A stretch of 64,000 nucleotides of DNA from Oscillospiraceae bacterium (lineage in GTDB: Bacteria; Bacillota; Clostridia; Oscillospirales; Oscillospiraceae): assembly GCA_017430455.1 (NCBI GenBank), contig JAFRMX010000023.1:1-64000 (forward strand), given 5' to 3'. The position numbers were made by a program, and so were the translations under genes. Under the pieces are notes generated by a model. That model saw only the letters and a program-made list of their open reading frames with translations, had not been told where the DNA came from and searched no databases. Positions 4,312 to 37,276 of the stretch are shown here, in pieces. The first letter of the stretch is position 1; every line of letters begins with the position of its first letter.

Positions 4312-5172
4312 TTAACCGGATACGGTATCTATAAAGCGCCTCAGGCGTTCGGGAAGTTCCCGGCCGGCGTCGAGGCCGGTGTCTCCGAGCTCGACGAGCT
4401 TGTTCTTCCCGTGGTAGTCGCTTCCGGCCGTGACGAGCAGATCGTACCTGTCCGCGTATTCCAGCATCTGATGAGTCAGGCGCGCCGTAAAGCCGGAATA
4501 GAAGGCCTCGAGGCCCATAAGACCGAAATCCTTCAGGCGACGGATCCGCAGGTCCATCTCATCGCCAAGAATCAGCTGGTCTCCGTCCCCGTAGACGGGG
4601 TGCGCCAGCACGGGAATACCACCGGCGCCGAGTATTGCGGAGATGACTTCCCCAGGGCTCAGGTACCCCAGACGGACCTTAAGTTTATTCAGATAATCGT
4701 ATATAGCTTCTTCTTTGCTCCCGGCAAAGCTGTATTTTACCATCAGATTGGCGATATGCGGCTTTCCGGGATTGTCATTTGAAAACAGTTCTTTTAGTTC
4801 GTGCTCCGGGAAGGAAAAGCCGAAGGTCGACTTGAGAAGCTCGAGTCTGGTTCGCACTTTATTTATGCGAAGAGAGTGCCCTTTTTCAATAAGGTCTAAG
4901 ATAGAGGCGGAGTGCGGGTCGTATCCGTAGCCCAGGATGTGATAGCGCCCCTCGCTGTCCCTGCAGGAAAACTCAGCCCCCGTTATAAAGAGGGGATCGT
5001 CCTCTTTCCGGATATCTTTCAGGTGCACACAGCCCTTTATGGAGTCGTGATCCGTCAGGGAGAACATCTCTATTCCCGCGGCTTTCACGTGCTTTAGGAT
5101 CTCCTCGGGGGTGTCCGTCCCGTCGGAAACTGTCGAATGCATGTGGAGGTCAATGGTCTTAGGGTATTTCAT
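4312..5172 (-). CDS. PHP-domain phosphoesterase (TrpH/RNase AM-like)
   Basis: The PHP fold has its metal ligands in view: DLHMHS at residues 8-13, then SLTDHD and ITGAEFSC. Length (286 aa) and order match the YciV/TrpH group, whose E. coli member is a 5'-3' exonuclease acting on RNA ends; some relatives dephosphorylate nucleotides. It is probably cytoplasmic and uses two or three Mn/Zn ions. The start at 5172 is preferred over a longer reading frame because AGAGGAAA precedes this ATG and the PHP motif begins at once. It stands alone on the minus strand with its own terminator. Substrate is not predictable from the sequence. Confidence 0.88.
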   Translation of the reverse strand: MKYPKTIDLHMHSTVSDGTDTPEEILKHVKAAGIEMFSLTDHDSIKGCVHLKDIRKEDDPLFITGAEFSCRDSEGRYHILGYGYDPHSASILDLIEKGHSLRINKVRTRLELLKSTFGFSFPEHELKELFSNDNPGKPHIANLMVKYSFAGSKEEAIYDYLNKLKVRLGYLSPGEVISAILGAGGIPVLAHPVYGDGDQLILGDEMDLRIRRLKDFGLMGLEAFYSGFTARLTHQMLEYADRYDLLVTAGSDYHGKNKLVELGDTGLDAGRELPERLRRFIDTVSG

Positions 5173-31942: not shown

Positions 31943-32971
31943 TCAGCCACAAAACCGTATAAGCTGTTTATCTGCATCAACAACTGCGTTAATCCCAAAA
32001 GGTATAATACATCTGGGAAGCGAATGCCCGACATTCAAATTGAAAACGATCGGGAGATCTGGCCGATCAATAACCTGAGTCAGAAGCAGGCGGTATTCCT
32101 GAGCATAAGTCTCATCCATAGGCTTTCCGACCAAAAGACCGGAAACTGCCTCAAATATTCCTTTTTGTTTGAGGATCTCAAGTGCATTGCGGTATTTATC
32201 CGGGGATGGTTTTTCTTCACTTGTTTCCAGAAGAAGAATACGTCCTTTCCAGTCCTCCGGATCAGGGAACAGGTGATATTTTTCACACAGAACCGGCATA
32301 TCGGCATAACGGTCGCCGTTAAACATATCATATATGGAATCTATACATCCTCCAAGTATCTTACCGGAGAATAAAGCAGGACCCTGCAAAAGCTCAAAAC
32401 CGAAATCCGGATGTGAAATAAGCGGTTTGCCAACCTGGTCAATAGCGAAGCTTTTCCTTTCTTCGTACCATACATTGCTGGGGCTTATTTCCGATATGGT
32501 TTCAGTATGTATCAGCTCCTCGAAAAACTTGCGGGTGTATGGGATCATTTCCGAACTGAGCTCACAGATATCCGGCAGAAAAGCTTGTCCGTAAAAAGTA
32601 GTCAATCCGACTTTGTGAAGCATCAGATGGTTTACAGTAGTATCAGAAAAGCCGAGAAAAACTTTATCGGTTACTGAATTCGCAAGCTCATCATGTTCGA
32701 ACAGATAGGGCAGAAGGCGATATGTATCATCTCCGCCGATCGCACAGAGGATCATATCAACAGAAGGGTCCTGAAATGCCTGAAGAAGATCCTCAGCCCG
32801 TTTTTCGGGATGGGCTTTGATATAGTCGAGTCCCATTAGGGCATGCGGCATGAATTTTATATTCAGACCATACTCTTCCAATCTGCGAATTCCGATCTCT
32901 GTTTCAAAACGGACGACTGGCTCGCCGATTATCCCGCTTGAAAGACTTACGATTCCGACTGTTTTGATCAT
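31943..32971 (-). CDS. S66 family peptidase (LD-carboxypeptidase / MccF-like)
   Basis: The S66 fold is indicated by AIGGDDTYRLLPYL, the nucleophile in GFSDTTVNHL, a Glu in LLLETSEEKPS and the His in NVGHSLPR. LD-carboxypeptidases trim tetrapeptides of peptidoglycan, whereas MccF cleaves the toxin microcin C; the presence of SDTT near 130 fits either branch. No signal peptide is seen, so it should be cytosolic. It follows the MscS fusion gene by 14 nt on the same strand, with no clear ribosome site of its own. Confidence 0.87.
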   Translation of the reverse strand: MIKTVGIVSLSSGIIGEPVVRFETEIGIRRLEEYGLNIKFMPHALMGLDYIKAHPEKRAEDLLQAFQDPSVDMILCAIGGDDTYRLLPYLFEHDELANSVTDKVFLGFSDTTVNHLMLHKVGLTTFYGQAFLPDICELSSEMIPYTRKFFEELIHTETISEISPSNVWYEERKSFAIDQVGKPLISHPDFGFELLQGPALFSGKILGGCIDSIYDMFNGDRYADMPVLCEKYHLFPDPEDWKGRILLLETSEEKPSPDKYRNALEILKQKGIFEAVSGLLVGKPMDETYAQEYRLLLTQVIDRPDLPIVFNLNVGHSLPRCIIPFGINAVVDADKQLIRFCG

Positions 32972-32985
32972 AGTATTTTAAAGGA

Positions 32986-35900
32986 TCAACCCTCGTGGAA
33001 TGATTTGTAAATAATTATCTCTACGCTGCCTCCGTGCATACTGACCCTGACTTCATCTGCAAGACGCGCGACAATGGATGCCTCCAGCTCGTCCCATTTT
33101 TCGGCTGCTTCTTCATCTTCCGCGCGCTGGCTGTCAATATCGGACTTGTAGGCGCTCATTGTCCACTCATCGGGAATCTCCGTTTGAGGCAACTCTTCCC
33201 GTGCGTTCCCGCCGGAACCGGGATCGTCGGAGTCGAGGAGAAGCTTCACGTAGATCCGGTCCAGAAGCCTGTTCATAAAGCCTTTCGCAGCAGCGTTTGT
33301 ACCGCTTGTGGAAACAGAGAGGAGCCGCTCGCGCATCTCCATCGTCATTTGAAGGAATGTCCGCATATGAAGCTCATACAGCGTATCATGGACTACAACC
33401 CAGTAACCGGCCTCCACATCTCCTGCAATGCTTCGAAGCATTCCGAAAAGCTCCTCGGCAAGAAGCCTCAGGTGCAGCGCTGACCTGCGGTCCAGACCTT
33501 TATAAACAGCGAGCTGTTCGGTTACATGCAATGCGTTGTCTATTCCCGCACCATGACTGGATACATTGATGCTGATCGTCTGATTCCTGGAACTGTCCCA
33601 CCAGGCTGAGATGTTCAGATCTGTATCCTTGAAGTCTGCTATAGTCTTTCGGCCTTCGGGATTTAGCTGGGAAACTGTAACATTCGGGAAAGGTACTCCA
33701 ATATCGTTCCGGTAGAAGATCTTAAGCAGTTCGCGATTAAGGTAACGCACGACTCCTTTGATGTTTTCTTCGCTGCATTCGGCTACGACCGCAATTTCAA
33801 CACCGCTATCTCCCAGGGAGTTGATACCCAGGTACGTTGGGTCAGCGAGGATATTCGGATTATCCTTCCGGAGTTTCGGTAAGTCACGACGCAGAACAGC
33901 TTCCACATATTCGATATCCTGTCCGTATTCGATGCTGATCGTACAGAAAGCGAAGGAGTTTTTCTTAGTCATGTTCAATACACCGGAGATCTCGCTGTTG
34001 TTGAATATCTTGACGTTGCCATCCGGTCCGATGATTTTGGTAGTACGCAGACCGATATCGGTCACTGTGCCGCGATAGTTTCCGACAGTAACGATATCGC
34101 CGATCCGGAATTCGCCTTCAAACACGAAGAAGATGCCGGCGAGAATATCTTTGATAAGGCTCTGTGCTCCAAAACCGATGATCAGGGATAATACTCCGGC
34201 GCTCGCGAGGAGACCGGTGGGATTCGCACCAACCAGGTAAAGACAGAAGAAAATGGCCCCGATCGCGCCGCCATATCTGACAACAGAGATCATCAGATTG
34301 CCGATGGTTTTGCTGCGTGTTCCCAGCAGAGAGGAGATACTGAGAAGAGGATAGCGGATCAGCGCTACTATGATCCTCACAAAGATGAATACCAGAACGC
34401 AGGCGCTGACGGCAAAGATATTAAATCCGCGATCCCAGTCACCGCTGATGATATAGCGTATAATGGAATACTCGGGGAGCAGAGTATTCGCGCTAAGTAT
34501 CGTAAAAGCGAGATAGACAACCAGAGCAATTGAAAAAATATCGATCATTCTGGAGAGTTTCTGTTCGGGCGTTCTCTTCCACCAGGGGATCCACCGCGGA
34601 TTCCAACGCATCGAAATATCCGATGGGGAAGCTTTATGCCCGTATGGAGACAGCATATCGATAAGTGAACGGACGAAGCTGTTATTCCCGTTATCATCAT
34701 TGATCGTCGCATAGAGTGTTTCTTCTTCTTCGGTCGTTAATGTGACGGTTACGGAGAGAAACAGTATCAGAAGCATACTTGTCAGTGCGGTCATCAGGGC
34801 GATCCGCATACGCGACTGGTACATCTCTCCGCGCGGAATCAGCATTGTGATATGATAACCGTCCCCATAGCGTGAATAGATGAAACTGACATCTCCGTTC
34901 ACACGCGAGAAACCGTAGTATTCATTTGGAGAAAAGGCTTTGCCGGATATGCCAATGTCTTCCGCTTTCATACCGATGTTTCCTTCAAACGGAGAATACA
35001 GGCAGATGTGATCGGCACTGTTGTCAAACAACATGAAGGACTCATCGCTCTCAGCATAAGAAGAGAACAGAGATTCTGTCTCGCCGGAAGAAAGGCCTGT
35101 CAGTTCGTTGAGAAGTCCGATCTGCAGGAGAGACCGGTGCGGCGTAACCGGTGGAAGATCTCCAGAGGCGCTGCTGTTTTCATATTCCCGATGGGAAAGG
35201 TAAACTGTATTACCATCTTCGTCAAGAGAGGTATAATAATGGAACGCAACTCCGATGTACTGGACAGTTTCACCCATATCGCTCTCCCGCATTTCCTGGA
35301 TAAGGATGTCCTTCCTGCCGTCCAGCACCTGCTGGAACGGGTAAGATTGATCTGAAGGATCCCGGCTGACGGTGAAAAACCAGTTTTCGGTATTTGTAGC
35401 AATGGTACGTCCGTTCTCGTTAAAGAGATAAATGGATTCCAGACCGTTCATCTCACATATTTCCTTCAGTCGGGGCGAGAATGAAACGGATCTGAGGCGG
35501 TTGCCCTCTTCATCCGAATAATACTGCCGTACACCTTCTTCATCCAGGTAAGAGTATTCATGCTCGGTAGGCTCGTTCAGAACAGAAGGATCTTCTTCAA
35601 GCATGTAGGCGATGAGAAGCGCTTTGGAAAGATAACGGTCATCATGGCTCTCCTGAATCTTTTCGCGGGTCTCAACAGCGTCCTCGTAACGCTCGGACAC
35701 TTCATCCAGCGCTACGACAGCTTTTCTCGCGGTCTGGGAAATTTCAAGCAGAGTCTGGGAATAAAAGGATATCCCGAAAAGGAGCAGGGCGCCTGAGATC
35801 ATCAGAGGAAATACTTTCTGGAAGATAGTTATATCAAAGATAATCGGGCTGCCGATCCACCTGTATATGATCTTTTTCTTGGTATCGACCGCGTTCCGAA

Positions 35901-36918
35901 TACAATCGTTACGAACAATGACCGTATATAAGAGGCACAGAAACATTATCAGCAGGAAGCTTGCAACAGTCCAGTTAAGCACGTACCTGTCATTTCTGAA
36001 GACCTTGCCCGTTTCTGTCGCTGCACAGATTACGGTACCGTCTTCAAGTACTTCAGATACGCAATAATACTTTGTTCCCCGTATCGTTTCCACACCTTCA
36101 TAATCCGGTTTCAGCGCGTCCCGGGAGAGTCCTGCTTCGAAGGCATCTGTACCTGTCAGAACATCCTCGCCGTTCTTATAGAATAAAAATGTGCCGTCTT
36201 CTGCATTTACAGCGAACATGAAGCCTTCGTTTCCTACAGAAGCCCTGCTCAGGATCTGTTCGACATCTGCCAGTGAGTCAAAAGCCAGCTGACGGGTTCC
36301 GGAACTCACTCCCAGCACCAGCGTATAGGCTTTATTCCTGTAGCGGGTATTGAGCGAATAGTAGAAAACACGGTCACTGCCTTCGCCTTCGATAAGAGGA
36401 GCAACGCCTCCGTCTTCCGTCCTTGTACCTTTCATGAGTTTGTCGCAGGTATCCGCAGACATGAGCCCGAGATCTGTCAGCGCCTTCTGAGAATCCTCGG
36501 GGGAAGGGGAGACATATACGCGCCCGTCCTGCAACAGCAGGAACAGGTGATCCGAGTCCGCGCGTTCCGCAAGATCGCTAAAGATGGCAGAGCGCTCGCT
36601 TTCCGCGGACGAATTGAGTTTGTCAAAGCCGCCGTTTGACAGTATAGTTTGGAGATCGTCGAGCATATCCTGATTTCCGTCGTGGAATAAAGAAGACAGT
36701 TCCTCTGCGGTCTTAGAGTTTTGATTCAGCGACGAAGTGACCTGTTTCAGCGCAAGCTGGCTGTTCTGCCACTGCCTGGAAAGCGAAGTCCGGTGCTGCA
36801 TATTCCTTAAAAACAGTGTGATGCACACCGCACCGACGATAATCAGCAGGGTATTGATCGTCACCTTTATGAAAAAAAGCCGGTTCGCTCTCTTCCTGAT
36901 GTCATTCCTTATCCGCAT
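32986..36918 (-). CDS. Fusion of extracytoplasmic sensor domains, MscS channel and ATPase-like domain
   Basis: This 1310 aa protein begins with a membrane helix (16-38), an extracytoplasmic sensor region of about 270 residues (Cache-like look), a helix near 312-335 and another helix. A second sensor region (about 400-715) and several helices follow. Residues about 905-1010 are an MscS pore and beta domain (GFGAQSLIKDILAG, then GDIVTVGNYRGTVTDIGLRTT). The C-terminus (about 1120-1230) carries RLLAEELFGMLRSIAGD and the ELHMRTFLQMTMEMRERLLSVS pattern, like RsbW-type GHKL proteins, but without the Asn of the N-box. AAGGAG precedes its ATG. A regulated mechanosensitive channel is inferred. Confidence 0.75.
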   Translation of the reverse strand: MRIRNDIRKRANRLFFIKVTINTLLIIVGAVCITLFLRNMQHRTSLSRQWQNSQLALKQVTSSLNQNSKTAEELSSLFHDGNQDMLDDLQTILSNGGFDKLNSSAESERSAIFSDLAERADSDHLFLLLQDGRVYVSPSPEDSQKALTDLGLMSADTCDKLMKGTRTEDGGVAPLIEGEGSDRVFYYSLNTRYRNKAYTLVLGVSSGTRQLAFDSLADVEQILSRASVGNEGFMFAVNAEDGTFLFYKNGEDVLTGTDAFEAGLSRDALKPDYEGVETIRGTKYYCVSEVLEDGTVICAATETGKVFRNDRYVLNWTVASFLLIMFLCLLYTVIVRNDCIRNAVDTKKKIIYRWIGSPIIFDITIFQKVFPLMISGALLLFGISFYSQTLLEISQTARKAVVALDEVSERYEDAVETREKIQESHDDRYLSKALLIAYMLEEDPSVLNEPTEHEYSYLDEEGVRQYYSDEEGNRLRSVSFSPRLKEICEMNGLESIYLFNENGRTIATNTENWFFTVSRDPSDQSYPFQQVLDGRKDILIQEMRESDMGETVQYIGVAFHYYTSLDEDGNTVYLSHREYENSSASGDLPPVTPHRSLLQIGLLNELTGLSSGETESLFSSYAESDESFMLFDNSADHICLYSPFEGNIGMKAEDIGISGKAFSPNEYYGFSRVNGDVSFIYSRYGDGYHITMLIPRGEMYQSRMRIALMTALTSMLLILFLSVTVTLTTEEEETLYATINDDNGNNSFVRSLIDMLSPYGHKASPSDISMRWNPRWIPWWKRTPEQKLSRMIDIFSIALVVYLAFTILSANTLLPEYSIIRYIISGDWDRGFNIFAVSACVLVFIFVRIIVALIRYPLLSISSLLGTRSKTIGNLMISVVRYGGAIGAIFFCLYLVGANPTGLLASAGVLSLIIGFGAQSLIKDILAGIFFVFEGEFRIGDIVTVGNYRGTVTDIGLRTTKIIGPDGNVKIFNNSEISGVLNMTKKNSFAFCTISIEYGQDIEYVEAVLRRDLPKLRKDNPNILADPTYLGINSLGDSGVEIAVVAECSEENIKGVVRYLNRELLKIFYRNDIGVPFPNVTVSQLNPEGRKTIADFKDTDLNISAWWDSSRNQTISINVSSHGAGIDNALHVTEQLAVYKGLDRRSALHLRLLAEELFGMLRSIAGDVEAGYWVVVHDTLYELHMRTFLQMTMEMRERLLSVSTSGTNAAAKGFMNRLLDRIYVKLLLDSDDPGSGGNAREELPQTEIPDEWTMSAYKSDIDSQRAEDEEAAEKWDELEASIVARLADEVRVSMHGGSVEIIIYKSFHEG

Positions 36919-37276
36919 AATAAGGTCTCCTTTTTGGGACAGTAAAATTATTATAAGCGCAAATAACGATTGATGATTTATCCAAACCGGTTTTCGCGAA
37001 TAATTCGAGTACTCGGATTATTATATGCAGAGAATTCGCATTATTACCGACTGAGTATATACTTTGTTATTATAACCGAGTATTCAGCCTTTTTTCAATA
37101 ATCAGTTGAAGATTCCGAAAAAAGTACATGTCTGTCGTCATCATTCATTCCTGATGCACCGACCGGTTAACTGAAGCCCGTTACAACCCGTAAAATGACT
37201 ATGGTTAATGAATTTAAATGCATAGCAAAAGGCTCCCCGCCGCCGTTGATGGCAGTGTAGGAGCCTTGTTCATCTT
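36919..37276. other. Intergenic region with CGAGTACTCG palindromes
   Basis: A 358 nt AT-rich gap between two minus-strand genes. It holds a perfect 10-bp palindrome CGAGTACTCG (37006-37015) and a related CGAGTATTC near 37070-37078, which may be operators. The terminator of the next gene lies at its lower end. No ORF is credible. Confidence 0.45.
37228..37267 (-). terminator. Terminator of GNAT-YoaP gene
   Basis: AAGGCTCC pairs with GGAGCCTT (37229-37236 with 37260-37267) around a GC-rich inner part, followed on the minus strand by T residues. Placed 10 nt after the stop. Confidence 0.65.

Follow-up and report, generated by a model that had tools for sequence, protein, structure and literature searches.

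Partner switches are known mainly as controls of sigma factors, and the regulation of MscS-family channels beyond tension is, to our knowledge, largely open. In the SiaABCD system of Pseudomonas aeruginosa, a switch made of PP2C phosphatase, kinase and anti-sigma-antagonist-like proteins acts on the diguanylate cyclase SiaD and not on a sigma factor (PMC7647112, PMC8457831), and several non-canonical STAS proteins act on targets that are not yet known (PMC8256260). Here we analyzed a gene on the reverse strand of contig JAFRMX010000023.1 from an Oscillospiraceae bacterium (genome G000), within a stretch of 64,000 nucleotides that we call the window. The gene encodes a protein of 1310 amino acids (aa), hereafter the channel, with two predicted outward-facing sensor regions, an MscS pore and a C-terminal domain of ~196 aa that we call M. 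Our analysis suggests that M ties an MscS-type channel to a partner switch. In the open-access literature we found no relevant paper that connects MscS to Cache domains or partner switching and, as far as found, no precedent for a link between an MscS-type channel and a partner switch.

The M domain and its partner-switch neighbours

By sequence comparison, M is a separate, uncatalogued domain family. Standalone M proteins of ~180-250 aa are encoded in many relatives (at most 46% identity to the M of the channel, E values down to 1e-44), and members of the family gave no meaningful match in Pfam, NCBIfam or the PDB. At the level of the genus, 28 of 102 genomes contained M; the corresponding counts were 37 of 394 for the order and 4 of 398 for the phylum. 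Scans of viral contigs yielded no M, and the only M in G000 is that of the channel itself.

At 43 of the 59 standalone M loci a same-strand STAS gene lay within 300 base pairs (bp), and at 52 within 6 kb; HATPase_c_2 and PP2C genes were present within 6 kb at 33 and 30 of these loci, respectively. Given that these genomes of 2-3.5 Mb carry 1-6 STAS genes each, we estimate the chance level of STAS within 300 bp to be well below 1%, for loci that are partly related by descent. The recurring cluster has the order STAS - M - STAS - PP2C - [STAS-APH-HATPase_c_2] - PHP - DUF218 and at times includes MATE transporter or NHLM export genes, and in genome G047 a tandem array STAS-M-STAS-M-STAS-M-STAS (3 M, 4 STAS; L081:5703-8624, reverse strand) is apparently an amplification of STAS-M pairs. 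We regard this gene neighbourhood as our strongest evidence. Because the standalone copies of M sit beside partner-switch genes, a partner switch probably controls the channel or else receives its signal, an idea for which these clusters give a broader basis than the first-pass annotation had when it raised it. STAS, an APH-type phosphotransferase and HATPase_c_2 were also seen as one polypeptide of 529 aa (L072:10252-11838, forward strand), and contig C20 of G000 carries a STAS-APH-like version without HATPase, its APH part being judged by eye (L151:3853-5193, reverse strand).

M is found on larger proteins as well. Small MscS-M channels of 450-480 aa are encoded in G022, G062 and G479, the one in G062 lying in a single gene run with DUF218, PHP, STAS-HATPase and PP2C genes. 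In the M tree, the M domains of the small channels form a clade (100/100) apart from those of the large channels (G000, G473 and the RUG14730 assembly, G065), and M was therefore joined to MscS at least twice. In G020, G024, G059 and G470, single proteins combine an Mbeg1-like alpha/beta hydrolase (PF11187) with two M domains after it, which would suit a regulatory domain that serves different effectors. M was also found in front of a glyoxalase-like domain (Table 1).

The large channel-M protein recurs with the domain order recognized at first pass: RUG14730 encodes one of identical length with 95% identity, and a third species, G473, one of 1321 aa with ~51% identity. An assembly artefact as the source of the fusion was rejected, since the fusion is present in three genomes. 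The M domain of the channel is under purifying selection. Between G000 and G065 the ratio of nonsynonymous to synonymous substitution rates (dN/dS) was 0.086 overall, 0.093 for sensor 1, 0.071 for sensor 2, 0.078 for the channel part and 0.12 for M; the N-terminal core of M gave 0.075, and the linker and M loop ~0.36. Of 102 genomes of the genus, 7 were found to encode the large channel; it was detected in none of a further sample of 393 genomes from the order. On the unrooted channel tree the proteins with M group on one side, so that one gain or one loss suffices. In G473 the channel-M gene is downstream of genes for NHLM transporters, CW_7-type peptides, an extracytoplasmic function (ECF) sigma factor and DUF218, all on one strand (L259:8095-19900, reverse).

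As judged from its genes, G000 has a complete partner-switch set of STAS, PP2C and kinase, candidate partners of the kind that the first-pass annotation had in mind. Contig C15 carries genes for a response regulator, an 861-aa dCache-HAMP-SpoIIE-HATPase_c_2 protein, a STAS protein and NHLM transporters. The 861-aa phosphatase-kinase is complete, and the STAS protein, which retains the phospho-acceptor motif ISSAGL, shows 71-76% identity to the best M-adjacent STAS proteins, with a median score of 279 against M-adjacent STAS proteins versus 152 against other STAS proteins. A peptide of the same NHLM cluster has a double-glycine leader and CW_7 (cell-wall-binding) repeats.

M and the GHKL ATPases of partner-switch systems are likely to share ancestry. 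We compared the profile of M (68 sequences) with that of HATPase_c_2 (37 sequences from the same genomes) by hhalign, which gave scores of 27.3 in local and 20.0 in global mode. Block-shuffled controls (n = 150) gave 13.2 ± 2.4 (maximum 21.0) and 4.0 ± 2.6 (maximum 11.7), the reversed profile 14.6 and 3.7, and a STAS profile 13.7 and 6.4; as all of these were clearly lower, a chance likeness was rejected. In the profile alignment, a pair of glutamates invariant in 68/68 M members falls on the N-box helix of HATPase_c_2. The position four residues after the second of them is Met, Leu, Ile or Phe in 68/68, a hydrophobic residue thus replacing the N-box Asn of the GHKL kinases throughout, and the G1 (DxG) and G2 (GxG) ATP-lid motifs, present in 37/37 HATPase_c_2 sequences, have no counterpart at the aligned M positions. 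Without the N-box Asn and the two glycine boxes, M is unlikely to have ATP-dependent kinase activity and is probably a pseudo-kinase. The resemblance to GHKL proteins without the N-box Asn, which had been noted earlier, thus stands well above the controls; of the label "RsbW-like", the probable ancestry and the context hold, but M is not an RsbW and forms a family of its own without the ATP-binding motifs.

The pore and the outward-facing sensors

The 1310-aa open reading frame (ORF) and its MscS pore were both confirmed. PF00924 scored 53.6 bits (cut-off 20.2), and residues 839-1083 align by phmmer to C. tengcongensis MscS (3t9n/3udc) with an E value of 1.6e-34. An AlphaFold model of the channel, built from 11 homologues with a mean predicted local distance difference test score (pLDDT) of 65, matches MscS over residues 833-1077 in structure comparison by Foldseek and VIA (VIA Z 13.6), where the superposition has a root-mean-square deviation of 18 over 160 residues because the domains of the model are poorly placed relative to each other. 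We regard the membership in the MscS superfamily as firm, and tension gating and a heptamer are predicted. Hydropathy gave transmembrane (TM) helices at residues 19-37, 317-335, 365-383, 706-724, 791-809, 836-854 and 875-893, and a pore helix at ~900-930; with these eight hydrophobic helices, residues 40-305 and 389-700 should lie outside and the N- and C-termini inside.

The model of sensor 2 (residues 390-700) matches the sensors of Mlp24, PctA, PctB, Tlp3 and KinD with Z of 11-13, and the KinD core fits it at 3.3 Å over 133 residues. By this comparison sensor 2 has the dCache fold, a double PAS-like Cache domain between two TM helices, with weak support from the sequence (Pfam dCache_1, E 0.047). 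Sensor 1 is likely to be a dCache domain too: its match to dCache_1 (E 9e-5) is under the Pfam cut-off, and the commonest matches among its 11 homologues were dCache_1 (4 homologues) and dCache_2 (also 4). It gave no separate fold match among the 50 structure-comparison matches listed, which is not evidence against the fold, and PDB sequences searched with N-terminal alignments of the channel yielded nothing meaningful. The two extracytoplasmic sensors of the first-pass annotation are thus both placed outside by the TM layout, sensor 2 being dCache by structure and sensor 1 only likely so, and prediction of the full protein recovered the folds of MscS and sensor 2.

Proposed control of the channel and rival readings

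We propose, at about an even chance of being right, that a partner-switch phosphorelay determines or biases whether the channel opens, which would make the protein a chemically and mechanically gated MscS channel. The two outward Cache-type sensors, held by TM1-TM4, would bind extracellular small molecules and relay a change to the helices of the pore. M, as a pseudo-kinase relative of RsbW/SpoIIAB without ATP binding, would dock a STAS protein of the anti-anti-sigma type in one phospho-state. That state would be set by a PP2C phosphatase and a HATPase_c_2 kinase, in G000 by the single dCache-HAMP-SpoIIE-HATPase polypeptide, and the STAS protein on M, in seven copies if the channel is heptameric, would favour or hinder opening. 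Taken together, the repeated linkage of M to STAS genes, its repeated fusion to channels and its presence on hydrolases point to M as the docking module by which effectors come under the action of a STAS protein. It also speaks for the proposal that two large-channel relatives without M, in G032 and RGIG3527, adjoin STAS and PP2C-HATPase genes. In a broader and more tentative form, which we hold with somewhat less than even confidence, M may be a new STAS-docking pseudo-kinase domain that turns effectors (MscS at least twice, and Mbeg1-like hydrolases) into direct outputs of partner switches. If true, this would make the channel the first of mechanosensitive type to be under the control of a Ser-phosphorylated STAS protein and, at the same time, to read ligands from outside the cell.

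Several points weigh against this proposal. The GHKL fold of M rests on remote profile similarity, to which hhalign itself assigns a probability of only 10-21%, yet far above decoys, and the AlphaFold model of M, with two near-identical sequences as input, had a mean pLDDT of 37 and was not used. The STAS and kinase genes of G000 are on a different contig from the channel. M is lacking from eight large-channel homologues whose C-terminus is complete (G033, G032, G472/RGIG3527, G474, RGIG5799, SIG229, RGIG4821 and Sarcina sp. DSM 11001), so that it is an optional addition; a further homologue, in RGIG2628 (61% identity), is truncated and lacks its C-terminus. Finally, STAS-M binding, the phospho-state that binds, the effect on gating and the ligands are the parts of the mechanism that we infer.

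The signal could also run the other way, in the direction given by the first-pass annotation, with Cache ligands and tension altering M, which would capture or free a STAS protein and so feed a switch with other targets. Sensors outside and M inside are the natural order of a receptor, in this reading standalone M would serve as a soluble STAS titrator, and G000 has other possible outputs, e.g. seven ECF-type sigma matches. However, the 861-aa phosphatase-kinase has its own dCache sensor and hence no need of a second receptor, and M on Mbeg1-like hydrolases and on a glyoxalase-like domain looks like effector control. Because M is also attached to enzymes, a signal from the partner switch to the channel fits better than one from the channel, and we consider the channel as an input unlikely, if still the main alternative.

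Control by a partner switch has further to be set against a role of M in structure or assembly (oligomerisation or localisation), where STAS proximity would reflect standalone M only. GHKL proteins often dimerise and the M-less homologues fit such an appendage, but the independent MscS-M fusions, one small one lying within a partner-switch gene run, the purifying selection on M and its occurrence on non-channel proteins make this improbable. The channel might instead serve NHLM-type peptide export, through ion or turgor balance or by sensing the exported CW_7-repeat peptides, with the partner switch regulating the export programme. NHLM transporter genes and a DUF218 gene adjoin channel homologues in G473, G032 and G472/RGIG3527, NHLP-type peptides are encoded at the G473 and G032 loci, and the partner-switch genes of G000 sit in an NHLM cluster, whereas no NHLM genes lie near the channel in G000, G065 or G033 and many M clusters are without them. 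We rate this role as rather improbable; it is compatible with partner-switch control of the channel. Such control, as a recurring and conserved bridge between channel and switch, would allow one to test how a phospho-signal governs a channel directly, with M as an uncatalogued family that has clear candidate partners and M-bearing effectors as one kind of target to look for in the case of the non-canonical STAS proteins.

Flanking genes and comparison with described systems

The features are collected in Table 1, where residue i of the channel corresponds to nucleotides 36918-3i+1 to 36918-3i+3. The peptidase S66 gene and the channel gene are probably on one transcript, and a terminator-like site lies by the S66 gene at 31918-31893. 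This neighbour recurs at L032 and is missing beside the G473 channel; the peptidase was rejected as a functional partner, being shared only with the 95% relative, and its gene is outside the conserved system. A PHP-domain protein encoded at 4321-5157 of the window (reverse strand), distant from the channel, is a relative of the PHP gene of the M clusters, perhaps merely as a member of a common family.

Table 1 Features of the channel gene, its flanks and related loci. Plain coordinates refer to the window.
Feature	Location	Strand	Basis or remark
Channel gene, 1310 aa	32986..36918	-	ORF; TM1 - sensor 1 - TM2/TM3 - sensor 2 - TM4 - MscS channel - M
Sensor 1, residues ~40-305, extracytoplasmic, probable dCache	36004..36801	-	Sub-threshold Pfam match; flanking TM 19-37 and 317-335
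Sensor 2, residues ~389-700, extracytoplasmic dCache domain (by model)	34819..35754	-	Structure comparison; flanking TM 365-383 and 706-724
MscS channel part, residues 786-1090: TM helices, pore helix, beta-domain, vestibule region	33649..34563	-	phmmer, Foldseek/VIA
MscS beta-domain (PF00924, MS_channel_2nd), residues 921-982	33973..34158	-	Pfam E 2.4e-14
M domain, residues 1113-1308, predicted cytoplasmic, degenerate GHKL-like	32995..33582	-	Homology to standalone ~200-aa proteins
Putative degenerate N-box, E1155-E1156-L-F-G-M1160	33439..33456	-	Alignment: catalytic-Glu position kept, Met at Mg-binding Asn position
C-terminal block of M, LADEVRVSMHGGSVEIIIYK	33004..33063	-	Global profile alignment: last helix-strand-strand of HATPase_c_2
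Promoter-like site TTGAAA-18-TATAAT, upstream of channel gene	37069..37098	-	Consensus match only
Peptidase S66 (LD-carboxypeptidase, MccF-like) gene, 14 bp downstream of channel gene	31943..32971	-	Pfam S66 6e-29
Mbeg1-like-M-M genes	L094:3910-6159, L091:2732-4957, L095:6501-8891, L263:4585-6816	all -	
M then glyoxalase-like domain, G128 and G357	L214:6036-7223, L215:6063-7250	both +	Single ORF
NHLM-type export cluster with partner-switch genes, contig C15	L146:4145-17808		

The channel is like other members of the MscS superfamily (C. tengcongensis MscS, YbiO, MscK and YnaI) in its pore helix, beta-domain and vestibule region, and unlike them it combines two large extracytoplasmic sensors and four additional TM helices with a partner-switch-associated domain at the C-terminus. 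Sensor 2 appears to have its fold in common with the dCache sensors of PctA, Mlp24, Tlp3 and KinD, but it is joined to an ion channel and not to a chemoreceptor or kinase signalling domain. The NHLM/NHLP peptide export system (PMC2887384; TIGR03796, TIGR03797) adjoins some channel homologues and the partner-switch genes of G000; a search of the main text of the paper describing it turned up no anti-sigma or phosphatase genes.

By profile, M distantly resembles RsbW/SpoIIAB, the GHKL anti-sigma kinases of the HATPase_c_2 family, at the N-box helix and the C-terminal helix-strand block, and likewise has STAS and PP2C gene neighbours. It differs from them in the absence of the N-box Asn (68/68) and of G1 and G2, in a long inserted region, and in its occurrence on channels and hydrolases. 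In SiaABCD, SiaC acts on the cyclase SiaD much as a STAS protein is proposed to act on M-bearing effectors (PMC7647112, PMC8457831), whereas the effector proposed here is an MscS channel and docking would take place through a pseudo-kinase domain.

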